The notes beneath the pieces were generated by a model that was not told the origin of the DNA, did not search any database, and saw only the letters and a list, made by a program, of their open reading frames with translations. A program made the translations under genes and the position numbers. A stretch of 36,247 nt of DNA from a virus: positions 1 to 36,247 of IMG/VR virus record IMGVR_UViG_3300013006_000073; one strand, 5' to 3'. This document shows, one piece after another, positions 1 to 19,673 of the stretch; position 1 is the first letter of the stretch; each line of letters opens with the position of its first letter.

Positions 1-636
1 AATGTAGAAAAGCCTTTAATTAAATCTACAAAAAATTTTGATATATCTATTCTAGATAGGTTAGAGAGTTGTCATGACTACTGGATCAATAGGAACATAA
101 CTCAAGAAACTGTATCTCAATTTAAAGGTGGCCTAGCTAATGCTGGTAAAATGAAAAATAGATATGTTTTTCCTATTTTCAATTTAAAGAATAATATTAT
201 AGGTTTTTCTGGTAGAGATGTTACGAATATATCTAAGATCAAATGGAAACATCTTGGAGAAAAGAGTGATTTTTTATATCCATTATTTTTAAATCATTCT
301 ATATTGCAAGAGCAAAGAGAAGTTATTCTGGTAGAGAGCATAGGAGATATGTTAAATTTATGGCAAAATGGCATTAAAAATGTTTTAGTTACTTTCGGTA
401 CTAGCCTTAGTCTACCCATATTAAATCAGATGCTAAAATTAGATATTAAAAAGATATACATTAGTTTAAATAATGATTCAAATAAAAATATGGCAGGAAA
501 TATTGGAGCAGACAAAATTTACTCCAGACTTAAAAGATATTTTGACCAACGACAACTTAAAATTACTTTACCTATTAAAAAAGATTTCGGAGAGATGACA
601 AATGAGGAAATACTTCAATGGAAAAAAGCTCTTTAA
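1..636 (+). CDS. DnaG-like DNA primase, C-terminal part (5' end outside window)
   Basis: The frame is open from base 1, so the true start lies upstream and only the last 211 residues or so are visible. The visible part matches the DnaG catalytic core: a 'FPIFN...IIGFSGRD' stretch (nt 169-219) equivalent to the FPI/GFGGR segment before the TOPRIM domain, a 'VESIGD' TOPRIM glutamate motif (nt 331-348) and 'LNNDSNKNMAG' (nt 466-498) in place of the usual DGDxAG motif. The first aspartate of the DxD pair is replaced by asparagine, as best I can align it. The family makes RNA primers for lagging-strand synthesis. The gene overlaps the downstream nuclease gene by 19 nt, so the two are probably translated from one message. 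The family call is firm; whether it is fully catalytic is uncertain because of the altered DxD. Confidence 0.8.
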   Translation, partial: NVEKPLIKSTKNFDISILDRLESCHDYWINRNITQETVSQFKGGLANAGKMKNRYVFPIFNLKNNIIGFSGRDVTNISKIKWKHLGEKSDFLYPLFLNHSILQEQREVILVESIGDMLNLWQNGIKNVLVTFGTSLSLPILNQMLKLDIKKIYISLNNDSNKNMAGNIGADKIYSRLKRYFDQRQLKITLPIKKDFGEMTNEEILQWKKAL

Positions 637-1568
637 AAGTTTTATCAGCCTCTAGAATTAAGACCCTTGAAACTTGTTCTTGGGTTTACTGGAATAATTA
701 TCATGATAAAATTCCTCAAACCCAAAACGAAGGAGCTTTGAGAGGTACCATTTGCCATACAGTTTTTGAATTACTATTAAAAGAAAGACATAAAAGACAT
801 TACGATATTATAATTAAAAATAGTTCAATTAATGCTAGCAAAGGTATATCTAAATTAGTTAAAAAACTATCATTAAAAGTAGGTCTTGCTGAATCTAATT
901 ATGAATTGTTAGATGAAATGATATTAGTCGGCCTTAAAGAAGATTTTTTTGGAGAAAATGGAAAGATAGTAAAACCAGAATATGCCTTTAATATTCAAAA
1001 TGATAATCCTAAATATCATATTCGCGGATTCATGGATAAACCCATTAAAATCAAAAAAGAAATGCATATAATCGACTACAAGAGCTCCAAATATAAATTC
1101 AGAGGAGACGAGCTAGAAGCCAATATTCAAGCTATGATGTATAGTCTAGCCAGTAAAAAGCTTTGGCCCAAATTGAAACCTATAATCAAATTTCTTTTTC
1201 TTAGATTTCCTAAAAAGCCCACTCAAGAGCTTTCATTTAATGACGAACAAATCAAAGGTTTTGAATACTATTTAGAACATATTAATGAATATATAAATAA
1301 TTTTGATGAAAATAGTGCAAAGGCTAATTTTGCAGTAGATAGTCAAAAGAATAAATGGATGTGTGGGATAGGGTCTTGGGTTTGTCCATACAAAGCTCCT
1401 TATGATTATTATGTTAAAATAAATGAAGGCGGAGAAGTCACAGAGACAAGTCTAAAGAATGATTTTAAAAGTATTGATGGATTTAAAATAGAAACAAGAA
1501 AATATGAAGGATGCCCAAAATTCAATAATAAAGAAGAGAATCCAAAAAAAGATAGTTTTTTAGATTGA
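618..1568 (+). CDS. Cas4/RecB-like PD-(D/E)XK nuclease with probable 4Fe-4S cluster
   Basis: The 316-residue product has the layout of Cas4/AddB-type exonucleases. Residues 9-20 ('LSASRIKTLETC') are the usual N-terminal motif ending in the first cluster cysteine, C20. H47 lies in 'GTICHTVFE', the active-site acidic and lysine residues are D140, D153 and K155 ('IIDYKSS'), and Q171/Y175 form the QxxxY motif. C249 and C256 ('CGIGSWVC') and C299 ('EGCPKF') supply the C-terminal cysteines. The spacing of the last two is wider than in Cas4 proper. The ATG at 618 follows a GAGG element about 10 nt upstream, within the end of the primase gene. No CRISPR array or other cas gene is present, so a role in phage recombination or end-processing with the replication genes is more likely than adaptation. 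This role is inferred from context. Confidence 0.8.
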   Translation: MEKSSLKVLSASRIKTLETCSWVYWNNYHDKIPQTQNEGALRGTICHTVFELLLKERHKRHYDIIIKNSSINASKGISKLVKKLSLKVGLAESNYELLDEMILVGLKEDFFGENGKIVKPEYAFNIQNDNPKYHIRGFMDKPIKIKKEMHIIDYKSSKYKFRGDELEANIQAMMYSLASKKLWPKLKPIIKFLFLRFPKKPTQELSFNDEQIKGFEYYLEHINEYINNFDENSAKANFAVDSQKNKWMCGIGSWVCPYKAPYDYYVKINEGGEVTETSLKNDFKSIDGFKIETRKYEGCPKFNNKEENPKKDSFLD

Positions 1569-1599: not shown

Positions 1600-2346
1600 A
1601 TGATACCGCTATTTAAATCTCACTATTCTTTAGGTAGATCCATTTTAACCCTTGAAGATAAAGATGAAAAAGACGACTATCCAGATTCTATTATACAAAT
1701 TTGCAAAGAAAACAAAATGAAAGAACTTTATCTAGTAGAAGATAATATGTCTTCATTCCTTGAAGCTTATTCTAATTGTCGTAAAAACAATATCAAATTA
1801 AACTATGGATTAAGAATATCGGTTACCGAATCAATGACTGATAAATCCGAAGAATCAAAGACAAAGTCTTCAAAGATAATATTGTTCTTTAAAAATAAAA
1901 AAGGATATCAACAATTAACAAAACTCTATAGTATCGCAGCAAAAGAAGGCTTTTATTACGAACCACGATTAGATTACGAAACAATTTCTAAAAATTGGAC
2001 TGATGATTTGATTCTATGTATACCTTTTTATGATTCTTTTATATTTAATAATACTCTTAAAAATAGCCTTTGTATTCCTCAGTTTGATTTTACAAAACCT
2101 ATCTTTTTTATAGAAGATAATGATCTACCATTTGATTCACTTGTAAAACAAAAAGCTTTATCTTTTGCGGAAAAGAATGATCTCAAAATATATAAAGCGC
2201 AAAGCATCTTTTACAAAGAGAGAAAAGATTTTAAAGCTTACTTAACCTTTAGGTGCATTAATAATAGAAGCGTCTTAAATAAGCCTAATTTAGATCATAT
2301 GTCAAGTAATGAATTCTGCTTCGAAAGCGTTCATCAAAGGAATTAA
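1600..2346 (+). CDS. Stand-alone, degenerate PHP domain of DNA polymerase III alpha
   Basis: This 248-residue protein aligns by eye with the N-terminal PHP domain of DnaE: 'LFKSHYSL' for HVHSEYSL, a region around 'VEDNMSSF' for the TDHGNM segment, 'INKLNYGL'-like sequence for the KPIIGCE strand, and 'KKGYQQLTKLYSIA..GFYYEPR' for the typical EGYxNLxKLxSxAxxEGFYYKPR. Both histidines of the HxH metal motif are replaced (L and K), and DHG is missing, so metal-dependent PHP catalysis is not expected. In cellular DnaE the domain is fused to the polymerase; here it stops where the palm would begin and the catalytic part is encoded separately from 3203. It probably works as a structural partner of that polymerase. 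The start has a leaderless-type promoter, and the stop overlaps the exonuclease start (TAATG). Confidence 0.75.
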   Translation: MIPLFKSHYSLGRSILTLEDKDEKDDYPDSIIQICKENKMKELYLVEDNMSSFLEAYSNCRKNNIKLNYGLRISVTESMTDKSEESKTKSSKIILFFKNKKGYQQLTKLYSIAAKEGFYYEPRLDYETISKNWTDDLILCIPFYDSFIFNNTLKNSLCIPQFDFTKPIFFIEDNDLPFDSLVKQKALSFAEKNDLKIYKAQSIFYKERKDFKAYLTFRCINNRSVLNKPNLDHMSSNEFCFESVHQRN

Positions 2347-2984
2347 TGGACGAACATCTTTTAAGATACGACAAAGATAAGACTATCGTGTTTATAGATT
2401 GCGAGACATTTAATCTTTGTCTTAATTTTTGCCATAATATACCTTGGCAGATAGCGATGATAAAAGTAAAAGGAGACAAAAAAATAGATCAAAAGAATTT
2501 TTATTTGAAATGGAATACAGATTTAAAGATAAGTGAAGATGCTGCGAGAATAACAAGATACGACCACAGAAAAGTTCAAAAAGAAGGCTTTGATCCAAAA
2601 GAAGTGTTCCCCACTATAAAAGATTGGCTCGATAACGCAGATTATATTATCGGCCATAATATTTTAGGATTTGACATTTACCTCATAAAAGAATACTATA
2701 AAACTATGGAATCGAATTGGAAAGGATTAATGAATAAAATTATAGATACTAATGCAGTGGCAAGAGGCATAAAGTATAATTCTATCTATACTCCCCAAGA
2801 TGATTTACTTGAATATCAATATAAAATTCTTAACACCAGAAAGAAAAATGTTAAAAGCTCTTTGACTTTTCTTGGCAAAGAGAATGGCATAGAACATGAT
2901 TATGAAAGTCTTCACGATGCAATAAATGATCTTGATTTAAATTTGAAAGTATGGAATAAATTAAAATGGCAGATAGAGGTATAA
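2346..2984 (+). CDS. DnaQ-like 3'-5' exonuclease (DEDDh family), probable proofreader
   Basis: The 212-residue product shows all three exonuclease motifs. ExoI is 'FIDCET' with D18 and E20, ExoII is 'GHNILGFD' with D110, and ExoIII is 'HDAINDLD' with H190 and D195, which places it in the DEDDh group. DnaQ/epsilon-type enzymes remove misincorporated nucleotides for polymerase III. Its position between the PHP gene and the DnaE gene, with a 1-nt overlap upstream, implies co-translation with the polymerase parts. The AAAGGA sequence just before 2346 is a reasonable ribosome-binding site. Because the neighbouring PHP domain has lost its metal ligands, this protein is the likely source of proofreading. 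A clamp-binding motif is not obvious. Confidence 0.85.
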   Translation: MDEHLLRYDKDKTIVFIDCETFNLCLNFCHNIPWQIAMIKVKGDKKIDQKNFYLKWNTDLKISEDAARITRYDHRKVQKEGFDPKEVFPTIKDWLDNADYIIGHNILGFDIYLIKEYYKTMESNWKGLMNKIIDTNAVARGIKYNSIYTPQDDLLEYQYKILNTRKKNVKSSLTFLGKENGIEHDYESLHDAINDLDLNLKVWNKLKWQIEV

Positions 2985-2985
2985 A

Positions 2986-3213
2986 ATGGGCTCATTAGAT
3001 AACGTTTATGATACTATACAGAAGTTAGAAGATCATGGTATAGAGTATCTTCTTATAACCATAGATAAAGGAAAGAAACAAGGCAAAGCCGATGTATTTT
3101 ATAGTTTGAAAGATAGGACTTCTATGAAAATCTTATCAAGAGGACTAGAGATTTTTAATCAAGAAATAGATAAAATTGAAAAAGAGCAAGAGGAAGATGA
3201 AAATGAAGACTGA
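2986..3213 (+). CDS. Small hypothetical protein in the polymerase operon
   Basis: This is a 75-residue, charged protein I do not recognise. It begins 'MGSLDNVYDTIQKLEDHG' and ends in a very acidic tail ('EKEQEEDENED'). An AGAGGT element 5 nt upstream of the ATG supports the start. The end overlaps the DnaE gene by 11 nt, and it sits between the exonuclease and the polymerase, so it may be a small accessory or bridging factor for the split polymerase. That role is inference from position only. No known domain is seen. Confidence 0.6.
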   Translation: MGSLDNVYDTIQKLEDHGIEYLLITIDKGKKQGKADVFYSLKDRTSMKILSRGLEIFNQEIDKIEKEQEEDENED

Positions 3214-5791
3214 TAATTACTCTAACAAGAAGGACTTTTCTGATAAATTTGAAGACACAGAGTTGGATATTCATGGAGTTAGATTGCCCGAGTTTAAAAT
3301 TGATTTAGCATCCAAAAGACATTTAGGAATAAGTGAAGATGCATCAAATTATGATTTTTTAAAAGCTTTAGCGTTAAATGGATTTAAGACTTTAAATATT
3401 AATAAATCCCATAAGGATTATAAGAAATATGTTGATAGGGCAAAGTATGAATTAGAGACTTTAAAGGAATTAGACTTTATTGATTATATATTACTTGTAT
3501 GGGATGTTATCCATTTTTGCAAAACTAGTGATATTCCAATAGGTCTAGGCAGAGGTTCAGCTGCTGGATCTTTAATATTATACTTGGTAGGCGTTACCAG
3601 AATCGACCCAGTTAAATACGACCTGTATTTCGAAAGATTTATATCCAAGATTCGTGCTAAAAAGCAGGTTATTGATGGAGTAACGTATCTAGATGGCAGT
3701 TTGATGTGCGACGTAGATTTAGATATTTGTTATTATAATCGTCAAAAAGTACTTCAATATTTAGAGAACAAATTCAAAGGTAAAACTAGTAAGATATTAA
3801 CCTTTAATAGCTTAAGTGGAAAATTGCTTATTAAAGAATGTGGTAAAATCATCGCAGAAAAACCAGAGCAAGAAATGACAATGATTTCCTCTTTAATCCC
3901 TAAAACTTATGGTCAAGTTAAGGATATTTCAGAAGCTTATCAAGAAGTTGAACAATTTAAAGAATGGTGTGATCAAAATAAAGAAGCATATCAAATTGCA
4001 CTTAAATTAAGAGACTTGATCAAGAATAAAGGAGTTCATCCTTCTGGAGTATTACTTTCTTATTACGATCTAGAAACTATATGTCCAACAGAATTTTCTT
4101 CAGATAAAGAAGTAGTATCTAGTTTTGACATGAACTGGGCAAGTGTTTTTAATATAAAGTTAGATATTCTTGGCTTAAGAAGCGTTTCTGTAGTAGACAA
4201 CGTTTGCAAGAGCATTAATCTAAAAATAGAAGATATAGATTTAAATCATGAATCTATTTATAGAAATTTGCAGGATTTGAAATCTCCACATGGCTTATTC
4301 CAAATTGAAGCAGAAACTAATTTTAGAGTATGTCAAAAAGTTAAACCAAAAAATCTAGAAGAACTTAGCGGGGTTCTTGCTTTAGCTAGACCTGGAGCGC
4401 TTCAATTCGTAGATAAATACGCAGCTCATACAAATTATCAGCAATCAGAAAGTATTCATCCGTTCTTTGATGAAATTTTAAAAGAAACTGGCGGAGTTGC
4501 TTTATACCAAGAGCAATTAATGAAAATGGCCCATAAGATTGGGTTTACTTTAGATGAAGCAGAAATATTAAGAAGAATTGTAGGCAAAAAGAAAACGGAA
4601 GAGATTAAAGCTTGGCAACAAAAGATTGAACAAAAATGCAAACAAAATAAAATTCCAAAAGAAGTTAGTGAAATTCTTTGGAAAATTCTAGAAGATTCTG
4701 CTAACTACTCATTTAATAAATCACATTCTATAGCTTACGCTGGACTAGCAGCAATCACAATTTATCTTAAGTTTAATTATCCTCAACAATTCTTTTTATC
4801 ATTATTAAAAATGAGCAGGAATGAACCAGACCCAATTGGAGAAATATCTAAGATTCAAAAAGAGATGCATAATTTTGGTATCAAGCTTCTTCCCCCGCAT
4901 ATTATTAAATCAGAAATGGATTTCTCAATCGAAGACAAGGACATTAGATTTGGTTTATTATCAATCAAAGGTATTAGCGATAAGTCAATAGAAAAATTAA
5001 ATAGCTTCAGAAATAAATACTCAAATAAATTTGAAATATTTGAAGCCGCAGAAGAAGCTGGATTAAATATTGGAGCATTATCTGCATTAATTCAAGCTGG
5101 AGCACTTAGCGGATTTAATCAATCAAGAAGCAAAATAGTATTAGAGGTTCAATTATGGAACATGTTAACCTCTAAGGAGAAAAAGTATTCAATATTATTT
5201 GCAGATAAGTTTGATTATGATCTAATTAAAATCATTAAACATCTCAATAAATTTACGGATGAGAAAAATAAAGTAGTCATTAAAGATAATAGACTTACTA
5301 CAATTAAAGAAAAGTATACTCCGTACTTGAGTATATATGAACAAAACAATAAAAGCGAAAGTTTTGCTAACTGGTATTATGAAAAGAAACTTCTAGGATA
5401 TACTTATAATAAAAATCTAAAAGATATCTTTGCCGAAAAAAGAGAAAATCTTAAATATGTATCTGATATATTAGACGAACCAGTTAACTCTAAAGTAGCT
5501 TTAGTTGGTCAAATAGAAGAAGTATTCTCTGGCATATCTAAAAACGCAAAGAAGACAAGGTATGTTAGGCTAAAGATATCAGATGAAACAAGTACAATTA
5601 GCGTATTAATATTTAATGATAATATTGAGACAAATAAACTATTAAATGATAAGAATTTTGAAGAAGGAAATATCGTAATAGTCAAAGGCTCCAAAAGAGA
5701 TGATTGTATATTTGGTGATTTAATAGCTATTCAAGATCATGAGATATATATGAAATTAAATGATTTAAAAAAGATAGATAAAAATAATTGA
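3203..5791 (+). CDS. DNA polymerase III alpha subunit, catalytic part without PHP domain
   Basis: This is a C-family replicative polymerase lacking the N-terminal PHP domain. The palm carries 'GLGRGSAAG' (about residues 114-122) and 'CDVDLD' (catalytic D170 and D172, for the usual PDIDLD). The third aspartate lies in 'KLDILGL' near residue 321. 'GVHPSGVLLS', 'RPGALQFVDKY', 'LYQEQLMKMA', 'RRIVGKKK' and 'FNKSHSIAYA' follow as in DnaE fingers. A helix-hairpin-helix region ('IKGISDKSIEKL') and a C-terminal OB fold ('VALVGQIEEVFSG') complete the layout. Open frame extends to a TTG at 3176 and an ATG at 3197; I chose ATG 3203 because AGGA at 3191-3194 is then 8 nt away. The PHP part is encoded separately upstream at 1600. 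Phages more often carry family A or B polymerases. Confidence 0.9.
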   Translation: MKTDNYSNKKDFSDKFEDTELDIHGVRLPEFKIDLASKRHLGISEDASNYDFLKALALNGFKTLNINKSHKDYKKYVDRAKYELETLKELDFIDYILLVWDVIHFCKTSDIPIGLGRGSAAGSLILYLVGVTRIDPVKYDLYFERFISKIRAKKQVIDGVTYLDGSLMCDVDLDICYYNRQKVLQYLENKFKGKTSKILTFNSLSGKLLIKECGKIIAEKPEQEMTMISSLIPKTYGQVKDISEAYQEVEQFKEWCDQNKEAYQIALKLRDLIKNKGVHPSGVLLSYYDLETICPTEFSSDKEVVSSFDMNWASVFNIKLDILGLRSVSVVDNVCKSINLKIEDIDLNHESIYRNLQDLKSPHGLFQIEAETNFRVCQKVKPKNLEELSGVLALARPGALQFVDKYAAHTNYQQSESIHPFFDEILKETGGVALYQEQLMKMAHKIGFTLDEAEILRRIVGKKKTEEIKAWQQKIEQKCKQNKIPKEVSEILWKILEDSANYSFNKSHSIAYAGLAAITIYLKFNYPQQFFLSLLKMSRNEPDPIGEISKIQKEMHNFGIKLLPPHIIKSEMDFSIEDKDIRFGLLSIKGISDKSIEKLNSFRNKYSNKFEIFEAAEEAGLNIGALSALIQAGALSGFNQSRSKIVLEVQLWNMLTSKEKKYSILFADKFDYDLIKIIKHLNKFTDEKNKVVIKDNRLTTIKEKYTPYLSIYEQNNKSESFANWYYEKKLLGYTYNKNLKDIFAEKRENLKYVSDILDEPVNSKVALVGQIEEVFSGISKNAKKTRYVRLKISDETSTISVLIFNDNIETNKLLNDKNFEEGNIVIVKGSKRDDCIFGDLIAIQDHEIYMKLNDLKKIDKNN

Positions 5792-5824: not shown

Positions 5825-6379
5825 ATGATATCATTTTATAAACCAAATAGTAAAAACACAGGCACAGCTTGTAGTTTTAGCGTAAATTCAAAAGATAATT
5901 CGGTATGGGGTTCATTAATCAAACAAAGCTCTTGGAATGAGACAAAAAAGATTGGGTCTTTCTCCGAGAATCAAAATAATCCCAATAAAAGTGTTAAGGT
6001 TAAATTTTCACTCACAGAAGCAGCTGGACTTCTTGACTCTTTAGAAAGAAATACTGAATTTTCAGCTTACCATACTTCAGAAAAACAAATTACAAAAATT
6101 AGGCTAGCTCCTTATATCAGAGACGATAAGCAAGTTGGTTTTTCGTATAGCGTAAATAAAGAAGACAAGCAGAACATAGAAAATAAACAATCATATTTAA
6201 TTGGCTTTTATTTTAATGAAGCAAGACTATTAAAAGAGTTTTTGAGCTATTCTTTAAATTCTGTCTTTGAAACTCAACGAATAGAAGCTATTAAGAAAGC
6301 AAAAAATTTCACAAAAGAAACCAAAGAAGAAGTTAAAGAAGTTACAGAAAGTAGTCAAGAAGATAGCGAACTCTGGTAA
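5825..6379 (+). CDS. Probable single-stranded-DNA-binding protein (PC4/Whirly-like)
   Basis: The 184-residue protein starts 'MISFYKPNSKNTGTACSF' and shows strand-rich sequence with 'KVKFSLTEAAGLLDSLE' followed by 'EFSAYHTSEK'. This pattern resembles PC4/Whirly-type ssDNA-binding proteins of phages. The last 35 residues are lysine/glutamate-rich and end in an acidic tip with a final aromatic ('SSQEDSELW'), like the partner-binding tails of SSB proteins. It lies directly after the polymerase and has its own strong promoter, as expected for a protein needed in quantity. The stop overlaps the next start (TAATG). The fold is assigned by eye; the SSB role is likely but not proven. Confidence 0.55.
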   Translation: MISFYKPNSKNTGTACSFSVNSKDNSVWGSLIKQSSWNETKKIGSFSENQNNPNKSVKVKFSLTEAAGLLDSLERNTEFSAYHTSEKQITKIRLAPYIRDDKQVGFSYSVNKEDKQNIENKQSYLIGFYFNEARLLKEFLSYSLNSVFETQRIEAIKKAKNFTKETKEEVKEVTESSQEDSELW

Positions 6380-8295
6380 TGGAACGGAAAAAGAAAGTTT
6401 TAATACAAACAGATTTTTCTTTAGCCAAAACTGGCTTTGGAAGAAATGCTAAAACTTTACTTAAACATTTATATTCCACAAATAAATATGATCTAGTTCA
6501 TTACTCATGTGGAATGACTTATGATCATCCAGAGTTCAAGAAGACCCCTTGGAAGTCAGTAGGTTCCCTACCCAATACTCAGCAAGAACTTGACCAATTA
6601 AACAGAGATCCTAATTTAGCTAGAATGGCAAGCTACGGGGCGCATCTTTTGGATAAAGTCATTAATGAGGAAAAGCCAGATATTTATATTGGCGTTCAAG
6701 ATATTTGGGGAGTAGATTTTGCTATAGAAAAACCATGGTTTAATAAAATTGCATCTGTGATTTGGACCACATTAGACTCCCTTCCTATTCTTCAATCTGC
6801 TATTACTAACGCTCCAAAAATTAAGAATTATTGGATTTGGAGTAACTTCGCCACGAAAGCTTTGCATAAACTTGGACATGGTCATGTTAAGACTATGCAT
6901 GGCTCTCTTGAAGATAAAGAATTTTATCGTTTATCAGATTTTGATAGAAATCAACTTAGAAAAAAGCATAGTATTCCACAGGATGCATTCATAATTGGAT
7001 TCGTTTTTAGGAATCAATTAAGAAAAAGTGTTCCAAATTTATTACAAGGTTACGCTTTATGGAAAAAGAATAATCCAGAAGTTAAAAATACATATCTTCT
7101 TTTGCATACCCATTGGGGTGAAGGATGGAACATTCATAAGCTTGCTGTTGAATTTGGAGTAAATCATAATGAAATATTGACTACTCATATTTGTAAAAAC
7201 TGTGGAGAATATGAAATTAAACCCTTCGCTGGGCCAGATACTAATTGCAAATTTTGTAATGCACAAAAAAGCCAAACCACAACAAATGTATCACTTGGAG
7301 TTACAGAGGATCAATTAAATGAAGTTTATAATTTTATGGACGTTTATTGTCATCCATTTACAAGTGGTGGACAAGAAATACCGATCCAAGAGGCAAAATT
7401 AACCGAACTTATTACTCTTGTTACAAATTATAGCTGTGGCGAAGAAATGTGTGAGACAGAAGCAAACTCTCTTCCCTTAGAATGGAATGAATATAGAGAG
7501 CATGGTACAGAATTTATTAAAGCTTCTACTTATCCAGAATCAATAGCTAAACAATTAAGTATTGTATATAAAATGCCACAACACAAAAGACTTGAAATGG
7601 GCAAGAAAGCTAGGGAATGGACTATTAAAAATTTTGGTATTCAAAACGTAGGAAAATCTATAGAAGAATTTATAGATAAACAAGAATTCGCTGATTGGGC
7701 CAAAGTGCTAGATAATCCCCAAGATAAGAAAGATCCATACTTTCAAATACCAAATATTGTAGACGATGGTGATTGGGTGTTGTGCATGTATAATAATATT
7801 CTTAAAATGAAGAGTGTTGATAAAAATGATTCTGGTTACCAATATTGGATGGGCGAATTATCTAAAGGCGCAAAAAGACAAGATATAGAAAACTATTTCA
7901 GAAATGTAGCTTTAAAAGAAAGCGGAGAAGACAAACAGGTAAAATTCGAAGATGTTTTAGATAAAAATGACAAAGGTAGAGTAATCTATGTTATGCCAGA
8001 AAGTGCTGGAGATGTCTTTCTTAGTACGGCATTATTCAAATCTATTAAGAATAGATATCCAGATTATAGCTTGTATGTGGCAACGAAACCTCAATATAAA
8101 GACATACTAGATGGAAATGAATATGTACACAAATGGATAGAATACAACCCAATCATGGATAATATAATTTGGCTAGAAGGTAACAATCAACATGATGGAT
8201 ATTTTGATATTGCTTACTTGCCGTATACTTGCACTCAAAGAAATTTGAATTATCTTCACAACGGTTTAGATAAAGTAGAATTTCAATTAACTTGA
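6379..8295 (+). CDS. Multidomain glycosyltransferase: GT4 with zinc ribbon, DUF4214-like linker, N-terminal half of GT9
   Basis: Residues 5-450 look like a GT-B retaining glycosyltransferase (GT4): 'KVLIQTDFSLAKTGFGRNA' at the N-terminus and 'CHPFTSGGQEIPIQEAKL' (324-341) with the acidic donor-site region. A four-cysteine zinc ribbon (C272, C275, C290, C293) is inserted between the two Rossmann domains, which is unusual. Residues near 485-515 ('YQYWMGELSKGAKRQDIENY') resemble the short DUF4214 repeat. From about residue 528, 'GRVIYVMPESAGDVFLSTAL' is the start of a GT9 (heptosyltransferase-type) N-terminal domain, but the protein stops at residue 638, before the GT9 C-terminal domain, which is found in the next gene. 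The substrate is unknown: DNA bases, virion proteins or host glycans are all possible. Confidence 0.75.
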   Translation: MERKKKVLIQTDFSLAKTGFGRNAKTLLKHLYSTNKYDLVHYSCGMTYDHPEFKKTPWKSVGSLPNTQQELDQLNRDPNLARMASYGAHLLDKVINEEKPDIYIGVQDIWGVDFAIEKPWFNKIASVIWTTLDSLPILQSAITNAPKIKNYWIWSNFATKALHKLGHGHVKTMHGSLEDKEFYRLSDFDRNQLRKKHSIPQDAFIIGFVFRNQLRKSVPNLLQGYALWKKNNPEVKNTYLLLHTHWGEGWNIHKLAVEFGVNHNEILTTHICKNCGEYEIKPFAGPDTNCKFCNAQKSQTTTNVSLGVTEDQLNEVYNFMDVYCHPFTSGGQEIPIQEAKLTELITLVTNYSCGEEMCETEANSLPLEWNEYREHGTEFIKASTYPESIAKQLSIVYKMPQHKRLEMGKKAREWTIKNFGIQNVGKSIEEFIDKQEFADWAKVLDNPQDKKDPYFQIPNIVDDGDWVLCMYNNILKMKSVDKNDSGYQYWMGELSKGAKRQDIENYFRNVALKESGEDKQVKFEDVLDKNDKGRVIYVMPESAGDVFLSTALFKSIKNRYPDYSLYVATKPQYKDILDGNEYVHKWIEYNPIMDNIIWLEGNNQHDGYFDIAYLPYTCTQRNLNYLHNGLDKVEFQLT

Positions 8296-8309: not shown

Positions 8310-9461
8310 ATGAGACTTCTAGATACATACGCAACAAATACAGGGTCGAAGATAGATAAACCGTTTATATACACAAAATATTTTCCACTTCCTTTAAAAC
8401 CATATATAACAATTCAAAATCAAACTCCTTATGATTCTAGAAATTATTCGTATTGGCAAGAAGTTATTAATTTAATACAGCCATTTTTATCAAAAGCTGA
8501 CATCTATATAGTTCAAGTAGGTACAAAAGACGAAAAACAATTGGGCGGAGTAATCAATTTATTAGGGCAAACCAATATAAATCAATTAGCTTATCTTATT
8601 CAAAATTCTAAATTACACTTTGGTGCAGATAGTCTTTGTGTACATTTAGCTTCAAGTTTTGATATTCCTATTGTTTCATTATATAGTATCAGTAATCCTA
8701 ATGTTGCTGGTCCACATTTTGGAAATAAAGACAAGCATATTCTATTAAAAGGATACGAAAGAATTGGAAATAAAAAACCATCTTATTCTCAAGTAGAGAC
8801 TCCTAAATCTATTGATACTATCAAACCAGAAGAAATCGCAGAAGGTGTATTAAAATTATTGAATATTGAATTTCCAAAAATGCCAGAAACAGTATTTATT
8901 GGTCAAGATTTTAATCTTAAGAGTTTCGAAATTATACCAGATCAAGTATTAGATCTTAGCTCAATACAAGTTGAAAATCCTATTATAAGACTAGACTATT
9001 GTTTTAATGAAGAAGCCTTAGTATCCATTCTATCTCAAAGAAAAAGCATAATTTTTACCAATAAGCCTATTAAAAAAGATATAATTGAAAAACACAAGCG
9101 TAATATAAACCAATTAATCTACATAATTGAAGAAAACAATAGCGTAAATTTTGTTAAATTATTAAAGAGTAATTCTATTAGCTATACTTTACTATCATTC
9201 TTACCAGAAGAAATTTTAAATAAATTTAAAATCGATTATATGGATTATAATTTAATCGTTAATAGAAAGCATAAAACCAAAGAAGAGACTAAAATATCAA
9301 ATGTTGATAATCTTTATTATAACTCTTCGAGAACTTTATATTCATCAAAGGGTAAAAGTGTCTCTAAATATGATTGGTTAAATGGAAGCGGTAGTAAAGT
9401 AGTTGATGATATTGAATTTTGGAAAGAAGCTGATAATTTTTATATTTTTAAGTTGACTTAA
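8310..9461 (+). CDS. GT9 C-terminal domain (heptosyltransferase-like) with unknown C-terminal extension
   Basis: Residues 20-180 match the donor-binding C-terminal half of GT9 glycosyltransferases: 'KPYITIQNQ', 'YIVQVGTKDE', 'GQTNINQLAYLIQNSKLHF', 'GADSLCVHLASSF' and 'IPIVSLYSISNP'. The N-terminal half is at the end of the preceding protein, so the two polypeptides would have to associate to make a complete GT9 enzyme, or this half serves only for binding. Residues 190-383 are not recognised; the end ('WKEADNFYIFKL') is aromatic-rich. It has a candidate leaderless start 15 nt after the previous stop. Function is likely in the same glycan or modification pathway as its neighbour; the target is unknown. 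Confidence 0.7.
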   Translation: MRLLDTYATNTGSKIDKPFIYTKYFPLPLKPYITIQNQTPYDSRNYSYWQEVINLIQPFLSKADIYIVQVGTKDEKQLGGVINLLGQTNINQLAYLIQNSKLHFGADSLCVHLASSFDIPIVSLYSISNPNVAGPHFGNKDKHILLKGYERIGNKKPSYSQVETPKSIDTIKPEEIAEGVLKLLNIEFPKMPETVFIGQDFNLKSFEIIPDQVLDLSSIQVENPIIRLDYCFNEEALVSILSQRKSIIFTNKPIKKDIIEKHKRNINQLIYIIEENNSVNFVKLLKSNSISYTLLSFLPEEILNKFKIDYMDYNLIVNRKHKTKEETKISNVDNLYYNSSRTLYSSKGKSVSKYDWLNGSGSKVVDDIEFWKEADNFYIFKLT

Positions 9462-11181: not shown

Positions 11182-11730
11182 ATGGCAAGTATTTATGATA
11201 CAGTTCCAACTTGGAACGCTGGAAGTACTTATAACAAGTACGATATAGTACTAGGTAGCGATAGTAAATACTATTATTCCATTATAGATTCAAATACTGG
11301 AGCTGGTAATAATCCAGTGACAACCAGTAATCTTCAAGTTGATTGGGATGGATATATCTCTTTAAATGGAGTATTATATCCAAATTTCTGGTGGAAGCCA
11401 TCTTATAATGCTAATATAAATAATAAGCCAAGGGTAAAGATAAATCAATTCGGAAACGGTTATCAACAAAGAATAACTGACGGTCTAAATACAAGCTTAG
11501 TAGAATTTACATTAAATCTTGATAACCGAAACGAAAAAGAAACGGTTTCAATTTTACATTTTTTACAACAAATGAACGGTAAACAAAGTTTTATTTATAA
11601 TTTACCTACAATTTATGCAAAATCCAACTCAAATTTAAATACGATGTTTATCTGTCCAGAGTGGGGCGCTAACTTTATTTCTTATAATAATTATTCTGTG
11701 GAAGCTTCATTTATAGAAGTAGCAAAATAA
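11182..11730 (+). CDS. Minor tail protein, lambda gpM family, with N-terminal carbohydrate-binding-like module
   Basis: The C-terminal 120 residues carry the gpM-family pattern 'INQFGNGYQQRITDGLNT' and a closing strand pair before 'YSVEASFIEVAK'. This family connects the tape-measure and tube end to the tail tip. Residues 10-57 ('WNAGSTYNKYDIV', 'YYYSIIDSNTGAGNNP', then 'W') look like a small aromatic CBM5/12-type module, a common add-on in phage tails for glycan contact. It is the first gene of the tail-tip operon, with the only strong Shine-Dalgarno (AGGAGG) of the cluster and a GTGTAAA element upstream. The next gene starts 1 nt after its stop. Confidence 0.75.
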   Translation: MASIYDTVPTWNAGSTYNKYDIVLGSDSKYYYSIIDSNTGAGNNPVTTSNLQVDWDGYISLNGVLYPNFWWKPSYNANINNKPRVKINQFGNGYQQRITDGLNTSLVEFTLNLDNRNEKETVSILHFLQQMNGKQSFIYNLPTIYAKSNSNLNTMFICPEWGANFISYNNYSVEASFIEVAK

Positions 11731-11731
11731 T

Positions 11732-13096
11732 ATGCGCACACCTTCAACTTTTAATACAGTAGTTAGTGGTAGCTTGGATGTTAATACAGAAATAACTTCA
11801 CTAACGCCATCTTCATTAGTTCAACTGTACGAAATAGATTTATCAGAAGTTTCTCCTGCTACAATAAATTTTGATTACGATGGAAATCAACCAATGAATC
11901 GTGGAGTTTTACGCGTTTATAATGATTATAATTTATATAAAATAACATCAGATTCTTTTGGAAGAATTAAATGGCAGAATAATTTTTATTATCCATTTCC
12001 TATATTCGCAGAAGGGTTTGAATATAGTTCAGCTGGAACATTACCAACACCAAGAGTTTCGATATCTAATTTATCACCAGACCAATCAATAAATTCTTTT
12101 TATTCTTATATTAGAATGCAGATACAATCTCTAGGTGATATTGTTGGTAGTAAATTCACAAGAATTAAAACTTTTTTAAAATATTTAGATGGTGCAAATT
12201 TTTCTGGAGGATACAATATATTTGCAACAAATAGCGGAATTTACGAAGTAGAATTACCTAAAGATATATATTATATAGATAGAAAAACTACAGAAAATCC
12301 ATCTGTAATAGAATATCAATTAAATACTATATTAGACGTAGAAAATTTAACACTTCCAGGAAGAACAATTTTAGCAAAAAAATGTCCATTTCAATATAGA
12401 GGAGAAGGATGCTGCTATGAATACAATAGTAGATTAACATATTTGCATAGTGGAATTTATGCTAATATAGATAATTCACCAATTACCGTAAGAGGTCTTC
12501 AAACCGCACCCCCAGTTGCTACCGATAATGATCAATTATTTGTTGGAGGAGTTTTTGGTACAGGAGTAGTTGGAACAGCGGTAAATACTGCTACATTTAG
12601 ATTAACTGGTACTCTTGGCAATTCTGGATATTGGAGGGAAAATGCAGATTATGTTTCTGGAGATTTTGTTCATCTAGAGGGTAGAGGATTAAAATTTTAT
12701 TTTGTTTGTATCAATAATAATAAATCAGATGTTTTTAATGCCCCACCGAACACAAACTTTTGGATCTCAGATTCTTGTTCAAAAAGCATAAGTGCTTGTA
12801 GGTTAAGATGGTTAAAAAATCCCGCATTTAGACCTGTTATTTGGCCAATCAATAGAAATGGGGAAGATTTTAAAACTACAGATACTAGAATTTATTGGCA
12901 ATATTTTACTGACAATATAAACGCAAGCTGGTTAACTGGAATTAATGGTCAACCAGTTTATTTCCCAAGAAGACCTGGAGCCGAAAATCCAATTTCAGAA
13001 CAATCCCATGGTATACCTAAAGATGCAGATGGAAATTATTTAAATGGATTTTTACCATTTGGTGGATTTCCTGGAACAAACAAACCCCAAATTTAA
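11732..13096 (+). CDS. Minor tail protein, lambda gpL family, iron-sulfur cysteines split by an inserted module
   Basis: The 454-residue protein fits gpL of lambda: a beta-rich N-terminal part ('ELPKDIYYIDRK', 'TLPGRTILAKKC') and a C-terminal cysteine domain. Cysteines C218 and C227 ('CPFQYRGEGC', C-x8-C) and C349 and C356 ('CSKSISAC', C-x6-C) reproduce the spacing I recall for the four ligands of the lambda gpL [4Fe-4S] cluster. An additional C228 is adjacent. Between the two pairs are about 120 residues instead of about 22, and residues 297-345 ('YWRENADYVSGDFVHLE', 'FYFVCINNNKSD', 'NTNFWISD') look like a carbohydrate-binding-type module. The gene lies in canonical order between the M and K homologues. 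No Shine-Dalgarno is visible, so it is probably translated by coupling. Confidence 0.8.
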   Translation: MRTPSTFNTVVSGSLDVNTEITSLTPSSLVQLYEIDLSEVSPATINFDYDGNQPMNRGVLRVYNDYNLYKITSDSFGRIKWQNNFYYPFPIFAEGFEYSSAGTLPTPRVSISNLSPDQSINSFYSYIRMQIQSLGDIVGSKFTRIKTFLKYLDGANFSGGYNIFATNSGIYEVELPKDIYYIDRKTTENPSVIEYQLNTILDVENLTLPGRTILAKKCPFQYRGEGCCYEYNSRLTYLHSGIYANIDNSPITVRGLQTAPPVATDNDQLFVGGVFGTGVVGTAVNTATFRLTGTLGNSGYWRENADYVSGDFVHLEGRGLKFYFVCINNNKSDVFNAPPNTNFWISDSCSKSISACRLRWLKNPAFRPVIWPINRNGEDFKTTDTRIYWQYFTDNINASWLTGINGQPVYFPRRPGAENPISEQSHGIPKDADGNYLNGFLPFGGFPGTNKPQI

Positions 13097-13097
13097 A

Positions 13098-13802
13098 ATG
13101 ATTGACAAAAAAATAAAAAATTTTATTATAAAACAATCTGTTCAAGATTCTCCAAAAGAAACTTGTGGATTTATAGTTTTTAAAGATAATTTTATTTGTA
13201 TTCCATGTGAAAATACCTCTAAAGATCCAGAACAATTTTTTAAAATTTCTTCTATTGATTTTTTAAAAATTAAAAAAATGTATAATAAAATATATTATAT
13301 ATATCATAGCCATACAAATGAAAATTGTGATTTTTCTGAAACAGATAAAACTTGTGCCGAAAATTTAAATTTACCAATTATATTGTATAATATAAAGAAA
13401 AATATATTCAAAATTCATAATCCAGTTAGGGTTCAAGATGATTTAATTGGAAGATTTTATGAATATAAAAAATATGATTGCTTCACTCTAATAAAAGATT
13501 TTTATTATAAACAAATGAATATTGATTTATCTGTAGAATACGGAGATTTAGATAAAATTAATATTAAAAAATTATTTCTTGAAAATTATACTAATAAAAA
13601 TTTTATATTAATTGATGATATTAAAAATATTTGCAATCATGATATATTACTTATTGATGGCATAAAAGATTCAAGTCATTGTGCAATTTATTTGAGAGAT
13701 AATAAAATACTACATCAGCCAATCAATACTTTCTCAAAGATTGAAAATTATTGTAATTTTTATAAAAGACATACAAAACTAGCATTTAGAGTAAAGATAT
13801 GA
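13098..13802 (+). CDS. Tail assembly protein, lambda gpK family: JAMM protease plus NlpC/P60 domain
   Basis: Starting at the ATG at 13098, 1 nt after the gpL stop, the protein has 234 residues. An in-frame ATG at 13044 inside the gpL gene is less likely. Residues 1-110 are a JAB/JAMM domain with E21 ('ETCGF'), H70-x-H72, S80 and D83 (HxHx7SxxD zinc site). Residues 110-234 are an NlpC/P60 cysteine peptidase with C128 ('YDCFTLIKDFYY') and H194 ('SSHCAIYL'). Both active sites look intact. In lambda this protein is needed for tail assembly; its enzymatic role in the peptidoglycan layer at entry is assumed for the family. The stop overlaps the next start (ATGA). Confidence 0.85.
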   Translation: MIDKKIKNFIIKQSVQDSPKETCGFIVFKDNFICIPCENTSKDPEQFFKISSIDFLKIKKMYNKIYYIYHSHTNENCDFSETDKTCAENLNLPIILYNIKKNIFKIHNPVRVQDDLIGRFYEYKKYDCFTLIKDFYYKQMNIDLSVEYGDLDKINIKKLFLENYTNKNFILIDDIKNICNHDILLIDGIKDSSHCAIYLRDNKILHQPINTFSKIENYCNFYKRHTKLAFRVKI

Positions 13803-14569
13803 TAAAAATTAATTTACATGGTAAGTTAGGAGAAGATATAGGAGAATCTTGGGAACTTGAAGTTTCTAGTGTTGCTGAAGCTTTTAGAGCAATTGAATCT
13901 AATACCAGAAAATTTAGAAGATGGATATTAAAATATGCAGATGAATATGAATATGAAATATTAGTAGATAAAAGTAATTTATTTTCTGAAAAACCTGATT
14001 TTAAATCTATACAAGAAATTAAAAATTCTGAACTATTTGTTAATCTAGACAATAAAATTCAAGTTATAGATGTGGTTCCCTGCATAATTGGTGGAGGAGG
14101 CGTAAGTAAAATAATAACTGGAGTAATAGCTGTTGCAGCCGCTGTCGTTATAGGGGTATTTTTTCCTCCTTTAATACCACTTGCAATTGGAATTGCAATA
14201 GCTGGTTTAGGTTTAATTGCTGCTGGAACTAGTGAATTACTATCTAAGCCTCCGCCAAATATTCCATTTACAGCCCAACAAGTTAATCCAATTGGTGGTG
14301 AAGGTGAAAGTGGAGGCCCAACTTCTTATCTTTTTAACGGTCCAGTAAATACAGTTGGAGAAGGTGGGCCTGTCCCAGTTGGTTATGGTAGATTGCTCAT
14401 AGGAGGAAACAATGTATACGCAAATTATGATATTATATATAGAGCATATAACGCTAGTAAATCAACAACAACAAATCAAGTAGTAAATGAAATCCAAGGA
14501 GATCAATTCACTTTTAATTCTAGATGCTATTTGATTAATCAAAGCCCTTTAACTACTTTGCCTTTTTAA
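13799..14569 (+). CDS. Tail assembly protein, lambda gpI family
   Basis: The 256-residue product begins with a ubiquitin-like domain ('MIKINLHGKLGEDIGESW', residues 1-90) as in gpI. Two glycine/alanine-rich hydrophobic segments follow (about residues 100-145, 'IITGVIAVAAAVVIGVFF' and 'LAIGIAIAGLGLIAAG'), then the typical 'SYLFNGPVNTVGEGGPVP' and 'VGYGRLLIGG'. The family acts with gpK in tail-tip assembly and contains membrane-active helices. It overlaps the K homologue by 4 nt and is followed after 4 nt by the J homologue, matching the lambda order. Confidence 0.8.
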   Translation: MIKINLHGKLGEDIGESWELEVSSVAEAFRAIESNTRKFRRWILKYADEYEYEILVDKSNLFSEKPDFKSIQEIKNSELFVNLDNKIQVIDVVPCIIGGGGVSKIITGVIAVAAAVVIGVFFPPLIPLAIGIAIAGLGLIAAGTSELLSKPPPNIPFTAQQVNPIGGEGESGGPTSYLFNGPVNTVGEGGPVPVGYGRLLIGGNNVYANYDIIYRAYNASKSTTTNQVVNEIQGDQFTFNSRCYLINQSPLTTLPF

Positions 14570-14573
14570 TTTT

Positions 14574-17500
14574 ATGGGAAATGCAAATAAATTCGCAGAC
14601 GGTTTAGCTTATCTTTTATTTCCTGGAAATATAGGATATGGTTTTGCATCTTATAATTTTCCAGAAAGTACCGCGCAAGATGATGGTGGAGGACCAGGAG
14701 CAATTTCTTTATCATTTAGTGGTTCGCAAATACCATATTCTACAGAAAGTCCTATTTCTTGGGGAGGTGGTCCAAGTGGATTTGAGTCAGCTTATACTCC
14801 ATTAGCAGGATTAAATAGTTTTGATTATTTCGATTGGAGAGCAAATAATTTTGCTGGAGATTATATTGTATATAAAAATGTTGACGCGAACACTCCCGAT
14901 TTAATGAGTATTTATAAGGTAAGCACTAGCAAAGCAACAGAAGCTGGTTATGGAGCTATAAAAAATCAATCAGCATTTAATTCAATTTCTCAAATTAATA
15001 TATTAGATTTGATTTGCGAAGGACCCATAGAAGGTTTCGTTACTGGAATTTATATTCCAAATTTAAGTGGAAAAACTACTGGAAGCATTGGGTTTAATAG
15101 TGTAACTTTCCAACCATTTAGTTCAACTTTTAGTAACCCAGAATCAAGATCAATATATTGGAATGATGTTCCAATTTCAGATCTTCAAGGTTATTATAAT
15201 TTTCAATCTTCAGATTATAAATTTACATATGGAGAAAAAACCAATGATCACACAGTCTATAATCCATATTTAAATCTTTATGAAGATAGAAGAAATTATT
15301 TTGGTAAACAAGTTGATAAAAATAAATATCCAATACAAACTTCTACTACCACTTCTATTGGTGAAACTTTATACGGTTATTATGTTATAACTGGAAATAA
15401 TGAAGTTCTTACTCCAAAAACTTATTATATATATAATACAGAAATTTCATCATTAAAAATAAATTTTAAAATTAATTCGCTTTATGAGCAGATTGTTACT
15501 GGTTCAAATGCGGGAGATGTAGAACGTCAATTTTTACAATTAAGACTTAACGTTTACAGAGTATTAAATAATGGAAATGTTATTATTTTAGATACTTCAA
15601 AATATCCACCGTTTCAACAAGCATATTGGTCAAGTGATATCATAACTATCGAAGGAAAAGTGGCTACTTCTCCAGTGATTTGGACTTATGAATTTTGCTT
15701 TAGGCCTTTTGCAGAAAATAAACCATTTTTTACTTTATTTCCAAATCAAATAGGATGGGCAGTAGATATCACAAAAATATCTAGAGAATTTACAAGCGCT
15801 TCTTTAAGTAGTACCACAGAAGTACATAGTATAACAGAAGTTTATTCTGATCGATTTACATATCCAGATTCGGCTTTAGTATTTTCAAATTTTGATGCAA
15901 GATACTTTAATGATGTGCCAACTAGATCTTACTTAATGAATCTTTTAAAAGTTAAAATTCCAGTTAATTATGACCCTATAGCTAAAACTTATACTGGTCC
16001 TTGGAATGGAAAATTTAAAATTGCTTGGACGGATAATCCTGCTTGGTGTTTTTATGATTTAATAACAAATAATAGATTTGGTTTAGGCAAATATATTAAC
16101 GCAGATTTAGCAGATAAATGGAACTTATATGAAATTGCTCAATATTGTGATCAATTAGTTACCGATGGAGTTGGAGGTTTAGAGCCAAGATTTAGATGCA
16201 ATCTGTACCTTTCTTCAAAAGAAGAAGCTTATAAAGTATTAAATGATATGGCTAGTATATTTTTAGCAATTACTTATTATTCAGCTGGACAAATAACTGT
16301 AACTCAAGATTCCCCTAAAGACCCTATATATCTTTTTAACAATAGTAACGTTATAGATGGTTCATTTAATTACTCTGATGCTTCTAAAAAATCTAGAAAA
16401 ACCGTAGCTCTAGTTAGATTTAATGATGAAACCGATAATTATAAACCTGGAATTGAATATGTAGAAGACAAATCTTCAATTTTAAAATTTGGCATAAGAG
16501 AAACAGAAATAGTAGCGTTCGGATGCACAAGTAAAAATCAAGCAAGAAGAGTTGGAAAATGGCTACTTACAACTCAAAATAGTGAAACAGAAATTGTGGA
16601 TTTTAAATTAGGTTTAGAAGGTAATTATTTAAGACCAGGAGATGTTGTTTCTGTTTACGATCAATATAGAAGAAATGCAGCATATGCGGGTAGAACTTTA
16701 GAATTAACAACTGGATATGCGGTATTAGATCTTCCCTATAATTTTACAAATACATATGCAATTACTGGAGTCAATGCAAATAATTCATTTATGTTTAATG
16801 TGTTGACCCCAACTTATAATTTAAATTTTGGCACACAACTTGGGGACTCATACGCTACAGGTAACGCTGGGATAAATTCTTCTGGAATTTCTGGATTAAA
16901 TAGCTCTTTTTTAAGAAGAAGTCAATTACAATCAATTACAATAAATAATCCTAAAAATTGTTTGACAAGTGGGTCTGGAATATATAGTAATAACATAAGA
17001 ATTAATTTTCCATATATAAATAATATTCCTGAAAATATAAGCTCGGTAGGTATGACGAGAGTAGGAAACGTATTTACAAAAACTGTAGCCGATGGTTGGA
17101 ACAAACACGCTTATTCTTCGTTAGCATATAGTAAAAATATGTTTGCTGAAGCGACTTCAAACTTTACAGACAAATACGTTATGTTTGGTTTAAATACTGA
17201 TCAAACAACAGATGAAAGTTATGGTAGTTTAGATTATGCTTGGTATTTTGCTGCCGATACTAACACTTATATTTATGAAGATGGCAATAACATGGGCTCT
17301 TATGGATCTTATACTACTTCAACAAAATTAAGAATAGAGTATAATGGATCATGGATCAATTATCTTAAAGATGGCGTTATTGTGCGTTCTAGACCAGCAA
17401 AAACCCAAAATGAAACTCTATATTTTGATTCATCTTTCTATAGCAATGGAGCATCAATAAATGCTAATTATGGGACTTTTGCTTTAGACAGTTATTTAAC

Positions 17501-18254
17501 TACATTGCCTCAAAATACAGTTTGGAATATAGACATTAATACTTCTGGTTATGCAACCGCGGGAATCAATACTAGGTCTGAGATGAACAACAACGGTAGA
17601 GCCTTGTATCCAGGATATTATCTAGAATCTTATTTAAACAAACCCAAGAAATATAGAGTATTAAATATTACAGAAAGTGAACCATCAATTTTTTATGTAA
17701 ACGCATTAGAATATAATGAAAATAAATTTAAAGATATAGACAATGTCGCAACTTTAGTTAATGTTCCAAATCGTCCAGCAGCTCCAAATACTCCAGGATT
17801 AAAATTGAGTGGCCTATTTAGAGATTCTAATGGATACTTTCTTAAAGATCCATATGATTTCACAAAAGGACATTATACATCTAATCAAGGCGGAATTAAT
17901 AGTATAATTTATTCTATAATTCCATCAACCTCAACATCGCCTTCTTCTAATAGCTTGTACTATACATATATTAATTCTGGAGTTAACTTTGGAGCAACTA
18001 CTCCTCAAAGCGCTCTTGTAAATACTTTTTCTTTAAATAATTTACGGACTGGAATAACTTATTCTTATAATGATGTAATTTATACTCCAATATTTCCACC
18101 ATTCTCTACTCCTGTTTATACTGGTGATTACTATTTTAGAATTTTTGAGGAAAATAGTATAGGAGAAAGATCTAATCCTGCCACTGGAGTTTTTAGACTT
18201 CAAAACCAAGTTTCTTCATTTACTGTAATAGCATCTGGAATTAATGTATATTAA
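14574..18254 (+). CDS. Tail tip attachment protein / central fibre, lambda gpJ family
   Basis: The 1226-residue protein has the marks of gpJ: 'QINILDLICEGPIEGFVTG' (about residues 140-160) near the hub start, and 'WTDNPAWCFYDLITNNRFGL' (about 484-505). Residues near 822-972 form a SPRY/ConA-like jelly-roll module ('GWNKHAYSSLAYS', 'YVMFGLNTD', 'YIYEDGNN', 'LYFDSSFYS'), probably glycan-binding. The last 150 residues look like a fibronectin-III-type domain ('NRPAAPNTPGL'). It forms the trimeric tip that contacts the receptor and closes the tube. There is no Shine-Dalgarno at the start; spacing to the I homologue is 4 nt. The gene is large but within the family range. Confidence 0.85.
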   Translation: MGNANKFADGLAYLLFPGNIGYGFASYNFPESTAQDDGGGPGAISLSFSGSQIPYSTESPISWGGGPSGFESAYTPLAGLNSFDYFDWRANNFAGDYIVYKNVDANTPDLMSIYKVSTSKATEAGYGAIKNQSAFNSISQINILDLICEGPIEGFVTGIYIPNLSGKTTGSIGFNSVTFQPFSSTFSNPESRSIYWNDVPISDLQGYYNFQSSDYKFTYGEKTNDHTVYNPYLNLYEDRRNYFGKQVDKNKYPIQTSTTTSIGETLYGYYVITGNNEVLTPKTYYIYNTEISSLKINFKINSLYEQIVTGSNAGDVERQFLQLRLNVYRVLNNGNVIILDTSKYPPFQQAYWSSDIITIEGKVATSPVIWTYEFCFRPFAENKPFFTLFPNQIGWAVDITKISREFTSASLSSTTEVHSITEVYSDRFTYPDSALVFSNFDARYFNDVPTRSYLMNLLKVKIPVNYDPIAKTYTGPWNGKFKIAWTDNPAWCFYDLITNNRFGLGKYINADLADKWNLYEIAQYCDQLVTDGVGGLEPRFRCNLYLSSKEEAYKVLNDMASIFLAITYYSAGQITVTQDSPKDPIYLFNNSNVIDGSFNYSDASKKSRKTVALVRFNDETDNYKPGIEYVEDKSSILKFGIRETEIVAFGCTSKNQARRVGKWLLTTQNSETEIVDFKLGLEGNYLRPGDVVSVYDQYRRNAAYAGRTLELTTGYAVLDLPYNFTNTYAITGVNANNSFMFNVLTPTYNLNFGTQLGDSYATGNAGINSSGISGLNSSFLRRSQLQSITINNPKNCLTSGSGIYSNNIRINFPYINNIPENISSVGMTRVGNVFTKTVADGWNKHAYSSLAYSKNMFAEATSNFTDKYVMFGLNTDQTTDESYGSLDYAWYFAADTNTYIYEDGNNMGSYGSYTTSTKLRIEYNGSWINYLKDGVIVRSRPAKTQNETLYFDSSFYSNGASINANYGTFALDSYLTTLPQNTVWNIDINTSGYATAGINTRSEMNNNGRALYPGYYLESYLNKPKKYRVLNITESEPSIFYVNALEYNENKFKDIDNVATLVNVPNRPAAPNTPGLKLSGLFRDSNGYFLKDPYDFTKGHYTSNQGGINSIIYSIIPSTSTSPSSNSLYYTYINSGVNFGATTPQSALVNTFSLNNLRTGITYSYNDVIYTPIFPPFSTPVYTGDYYFRIFEENSIGERSNPATGVFRLQNQVSSFTVIASGINVY

Positions 18255-18256
18255 TT

Positions 18257-19672: not shown

Positions 19673-19673
19673 A

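Follow-up and report, generated by a model that had tools for sequence, protein, structure and literature searches.

In solved DnaE structures, the PHP domain packs against the polymerase core, and to our knowledge this domain is always joined to the polymerase in bacteria. The DnaE of cyanobacteria is also encoded by two genes, with the split lying in the catalytic part and the two products rejoined by protein splicing. PHP has been described as universal in C-family polymerases, although often inactivated, with HHDHEH[C/H]DH as the canonical ligands at the nine positions of an active site (PMC12926913). Polymerases that work with a separate proofreader are known to tend to lose the PHP metal site (PMC3919608, PMC12926913), and the PHP domain of E. 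coli is the epsilon-binding site (PMC3919608).

Split DnaE has already been reported in phages. The Microbacterium cluster EF phages Krampus and AnnaSerena possess two DNA polymerase III alpha genes (PMC7302621). Their DnaE is split between PHP and palm, as in the locus described here, into the adjacent genes gp56 (345 aa, PHP) and gp57 (767 aa, palm, fingers and HhH); no exonuclease gene lies between the parts, however, and the PHP keeps all nine ligands, as it does in many fused phage DnaEs. Group 2.2 jumbo phages have a split minimal Pol III alpha, the C-family catalytic module being carried by separate proteins thought to reassemble, but there the split is inside the catalytic module, the genes are far apart, PHP is absent and a B-family polymerase is present alongside (PMC7824862). 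The E. coli DNA polymerase III core (DnaE, DnaQ and HolE) resembles the present system in its degenerate PHP, separate DEDDh proofreader and polymerase fold, and differs in having the PHP within the polymerase chain, four of the nine ligands kept, and an epsilon with a C-terminal alpha-binding tail. Fused phage DnaEs of the phrog_405 type (Bacillus, Streptomyces and gut phages) and those of PB1-like phages (E217) have a homologous polymerase with the PHP still attached; E217 also shares an exonuclease gene directly ahead of the polymerase gene. The present family differs from these by its detached, metal-free and basic PHP, by the exonuclease gene that separates the two halves, and by the fixation of the fission throughout a wide clade.

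The window, i.e. the whole 36,247-nt stretch analysed (IMG/VR record IMGVR_UViG_3300013006_000073), encodes a PHP protein, an exonuclease (EXO), a 75-aa protein and a polymerase catalytic part (POL) in succession (Table 1). These four ORFs were recovered as first annotated, with a 1-nt overlap between PHP and EXO, a 1-nt gap between EXO and the 75-aa gene, and an 11-nt overlap between the latter and POL. Shine-Dalgarno-like stretches were present for EXO (AAGGAA), the 75-aa gene (AGAGGT) and POL (AGAGGAAG), and the same start-site inspection found no clear one for the PHP gene. As such a stretch stands ahead of POL, its start is most likely the ATG at 3203 rather than the mechanically assigned TTG at 3176. 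The Cas4-like gene is also the next gene upstream in most relatives, indicating a conserved order. Directly 3' of POL, a 184-aa protein conserved in most main-family relatives had no Pfam family match above cut-off and, by position only, is possibly a single-strand DNA-binding protein. Further downstream, one protein aligned with just the C-terminal region of the Pfam family 9 glycosyltransferases (164-229 of 247), while the end of the preceding GT4-type protein resembles, by eye, the N-terminal half; the two may be another split gene. A lambda-like tail gene set, together with a 2123-aa tape-measure-like protein, makes a long non-contractile tail probable for this phage.

Table 1. Features of the window (positions in nt; strand in brackets where given).
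Feature	Position	Description
Primase TOPRIM part	1..636 (+)	Cut off by window edge; Pfam DNAG_N, Toprim_4; phrog_47 9e-29
Cas4-like PD-(D/E)XK nuclease	618..1568 (+)	Pfam PDDEXK_1 8.3e-17
PHP protein	1600..2346 (+)	248 aa; detached N-terminal DnaE PHP domain; nine metal ligands all replaced
EXO	2346..2984 (+)	212 aa; DnaQ-like DEDDh 3'-5' exonuclease
75-aa protein	2986..3213 (+)	Acidic C-terminus
POL	3203..5791 (+)	862 aa; C-family DNA polymerase catalytic part: palm, thumb, fingers, HhH, OB
184-aa protein	5825..6379	
GT4-type protein	6379..8295	
Glycosyltransferase C-terminal part	8310..9461	
Lambda-like tail genes	11182..26045	Minor tail proteins, tail assembly, central fibre J

PHP and POL were found to be complementary parts of one DnaE. 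The PHP protein matched Pfam PHP (2.4e-15), and POL matched DNA_pol3_alpha (1.7e-55), finger (5.8e-34), HHH_6 (1.5e-17) and, weakly, OB. On the fused phage profile phrog_405 (PHROGs), their matches adjoin, covering 62-290 and 307-1088, respectively. AlphaFold2 models built from family alignments (mean pLDDT of 87 for PHP and 82 for POL) gave the same picture: the PHP model aligned with E. coli DnaE 6-247 (Z 21.4) and Taq DnaE 7-258 (Z 22.5), and the POL model with E. coli DnaE 268-910 (residues 20-657, Z 32.3) and, through the OB fold, with Taq DnaE 287-1123 (residues 20-846, Z 34.3). The fold of the PHP protein is of the DnaE subtype, with Z scores of 21-22 over 226-230 residues against the Taq, E. 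coli and M. tuberculosis enzymes. About 20 linker residues at the junction (E. coli DnaE 248-267) had no clear counterpart in either protein, and most of the first ~27 POL residues are modelled as disordered. Since the two proteins cover DnaE without overlap and adjoin each other, the fission sits at the PHP/palm boundary, in agreement with the early reading that the PHP part ends where the palm should begin. Neither the window POL nor that of any testable relative among the matches listed carries a PHP domain at the N-terminus of its own chain.

The catalytic aspartates of POL (D170, D172 and D321) are conserved, as are the DEDDh residues of the exonuclease encoded between the halves (D18, E20, D110, H190 and D195). 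EXO matched Pfam RNase_T (2.3e-13) and, in PHROGs, phrog_192, DNA polymerase exonuclease subunit. With both sets kept, polymerisation is expected from POL and proofreading from EXO. As EXO ends ~17 residues past the last catalytic Asp, it lacks the long epsilon-type C-terminal tail that binds alpha.

None of the nine PHP ligands is kept in the window, where the corresponding residues are L4, K6, R13, D48, R72, K92, F143, S202 and F204 (LKRDRKFSF); the first-pass annotation had correctly noted LxK in place of HxH and a missing DHG. Among the matches listed, 146 of the 148 distinct PHPs likewise keep no ligand, and a single one is left in the other two. What took the place of the ligands is not random, and charge is conserved: in E. 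coli numbering, D19 and H83 are replaced by K/R and E69 by R/K in 148/148, H12 by K in 138/148, and the Cys by F in all 148. We know of no earlier description of such a uniform basic replacement in a detached PHP. Median dN/dS was 0.051 for PHP, against 0.032 (EXO), 0.031 (POL) and 0.10 (75-aa protein), pointing to strong purifying selection on the PHP gene. The proposal that this part lost its metal site while being retained as a separate protein is thus borne out, and the PHP protein is expected to be non-catalytic and structural.

Relatives were gathered by polymerase and PHP scans (best 80 loci per scan) and consisted of viral contigs and one Flavobacteriaceae metagenome bin. The main family comprised 96 distinct polymerases with an intact N-terminus, of which 92 had enough upstream DNA; the other four POL genes stand so near the start of their contigs that no upstream gene order can be read. 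Among the matches listed, a separate PHP just upstream, in the order PHP-EXO-POL, was found in 91 of the 92 (a few of the 91 being partial copies of one contig), and for the remaining one (L120) PHP and EXO occur at another place of that contig (locus L034). A sister clade (about 49% identical) included 72 polymerases, six of them on contigs beginning within 730 nt of POL, and showed the same order in 66/66 testable cases among the matches listed. The search for this gene order in other phages, suggested at first annotation, hence found it constant for these three genes. The order is kept even where cargo genes separate PHP from EXO: many relatives have at least one unrelated gene there (by eye cupin-like, glycosyltransferase-like, nuclease-like and others). 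No fused PHP-POL member was found within the family among the best 80 loci of each polymerase or PHP scan, and PHP and POL in one ORF occurred in outgroups only, among the matches listed.

In the polymerase-core tree, the family and its deepest member (L165) formed one clade (SH-aLRT 100), set off by a long stem from the fused DnaEs of phages and bacteria. Krampus gp57 grouped beside a fused mycobacteriophage DnaE, away from the window family; its fission is therefore independent, and fission has occurred at least twice. Against 50,697 annotated phage records, a collection that may omit records very near the window, matches were weak, the best full-length POL being ~28% and the best PHP ~30% identical. 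The beta clamp family PF00712, the only clamp family searched, was not found in 13 long relatives, which are possibly fragments. Overall, the group consists of uncultured, mostly aquatic tailed phages in which the split is ancient and widespread, and the division of DnaE into a PHP protein without metal site and a catalytic protein, with the exonuclease gene in between, is real and conserved.

On a 6.7-kb contig (L158:4649-5159), the PHP gene carries a ~90-residue internal deletion and a frame change beside an intact POL start, which is either an assembly fault or a natural loss. In L322 (5194-8532), the POL frame is open for ~240 residues further upstream. An EXO-POL fusion, suspected from this 1113-aa ORF, was rejected, as the extra part matches neither EXO nor PHP and is an unrelated protein, fused or read through.

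No intein match (Pfam) was detected in PHP, EXO, the 75-aa protein or POL of the window, in line with the earlier statement that no intein signature is present, and none lies at the PHP/palm gene junction. The contrast first drawn with the split-intein DnaE of cyanobacteria holds in this respect, but it missed the closer phage precedents (PMC7302621, PMC7824862). In two relatives from one metagenome (L164:6995-9953 and L159:6950-10491), a split intein breaks POL itself at NK|SHS (K506|S507 in the window POL), so that three pieces together encode the polymerase. The Int-N/Int-C pair of L164 is bare and spread over two ORFs, and L159 additionally carries a NUMOD4-HNH endonuclease after Int-N.

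The proposed status of the 75-residue protein as a fourth core component was not upheld. Among the matches listed, its gene lies between EXO and POL in 58 of 91 main-family sequences and is absent there in 33, and it was not found in the sister clade (66 loci with PHP-EXO-POL). In L102, L104, L109 and L144 it has moved several kb downstream. As the gene is often missing or moved, the ancestral core likely consisted of PHP-EXO-POL, to which the 75-aa protein was added, as a lineage-specific accessory at most. No Pfam or PHROGs family match was found above cut-off, and a HolE-like identity, suggested by size and gene position alone, gained no support from a sequence or fold link to HolE.

The reading that accounts best for these observations, and that is considered probable, is a replicase module derived from a one-piece DnaE by gene fission at the PHP-palm junction, with the EXO gene now between the halves and the 75-aa protein as an accessory at most. 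The PHP protein would retain its fold without hydrolysing anything, and, serving as a structural subunit, would dock in trans on the POL palm/thumb, much like the inactive PHP within E. coli DnaE in cis. The basic cluster in place of the metals would probably either stabilise the fold through salt bridges or bind a phosphate group or DNA. Proofreading would be done by EXO, possibly positioned by PHP. Binding of PHP to POL in trans is the most likely arrangement, given their homology to DnaE, their constant co-occurrence and the evolutionary history they share. Among close relatives, PHP sequence distances correlated with those of EXO (r 0.91) and POL (r 0.90), compared to r 0.45 for the adjacent Cas4-like gene; this shows co-inheritance and is not proof of contact. 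On the opposing side, one natural recombinant pair (L008 and the window) is almost identical in POL (distance 0.03) but differs in PHP (0.26) and EXO (0.16), which means that exchange is tolerated by any PHP-POL interface. When PHP and POL were compared for residue covariation, no signal rose consistently above controls within clades; an apparent excess over the whole set came from positions that only tell one clade from the other, and it did not recur consistently inside each clade. Further points against this reading are that EXO is devoid of the C-terminal stretch through which epsilon contacts PHP in E. coli, and that the L158 PHP deletion lies beside an intact POL start.

A bolder version, for which there is some but limited expectation, would make PHP an obligate separate subunit in which a conserved basic pocket (K6, R13, R72 and K92) has replaced the three-metal site and taken on a new replication function, e.g. 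holding on to the primer strand, to a nucleotide or to pyrophosphate, or handing DNA to the exonuclease, within a modular enzyme of three to five gene products.

It is unlikely that PHP is chiefly the partner of EXO, in a proofreading subcomplex that visits the polymerase with little PHP-POL contact. The two genes are adjacent (<100 nt) in 40/91 main-family and 57/66 sister-clade sequences among the matches listed, the L008 PHP and EXO differ together from those of the window while POL does not, and PHP is the epsilon-binding domain in E. coli (PMC3919608); yet PHP tracks POL as closely as it does EXO, EXO has no epsilon-like tail, and cargo genes often stand between the two. Less probable again is that PHP left the replicase and was exapted elsewhere, e.g. 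for binding host factors or DNA via its basic cluster. Such a change would fit the conserved new residues at the former metal site and a separate gene under its own selection, but PHP always accompanies POL and EXO in the replication gene block among the matches listed, and along its full length its closest folds are DnaE/PolC PHP domains (Z 17-22), other PHP enzymes reaching Z <=12. An assembly or sequencing artefact, a pseudogene, or a gene rejoined by splicing or frameshifting can be dismissed, as nothing observed speaks for it: fused family members, first named as a sign of error, were not found among the best 80 loci of each scan, about 157 other distinct polymerases from many metagenomes share the split, which excludes error, a complete EXO gene lies between the halves, dN/dS is 0.03-0.05, and no intein was found at the junction.

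With docking of PHP on POL as the preferred reading, the locus bears on why cells keep PHP after metal loss, which is an open question in the field. As PHP is here already a separate, metal-free protein, its structural role is directly testable in a polymerase assay with or without PHP. The split marks a common aquatic phage lineage without close relative among the annotated phage records searched, and it indicates that domain fission of a replicative polymerase can stay stable across a wide phage clade.
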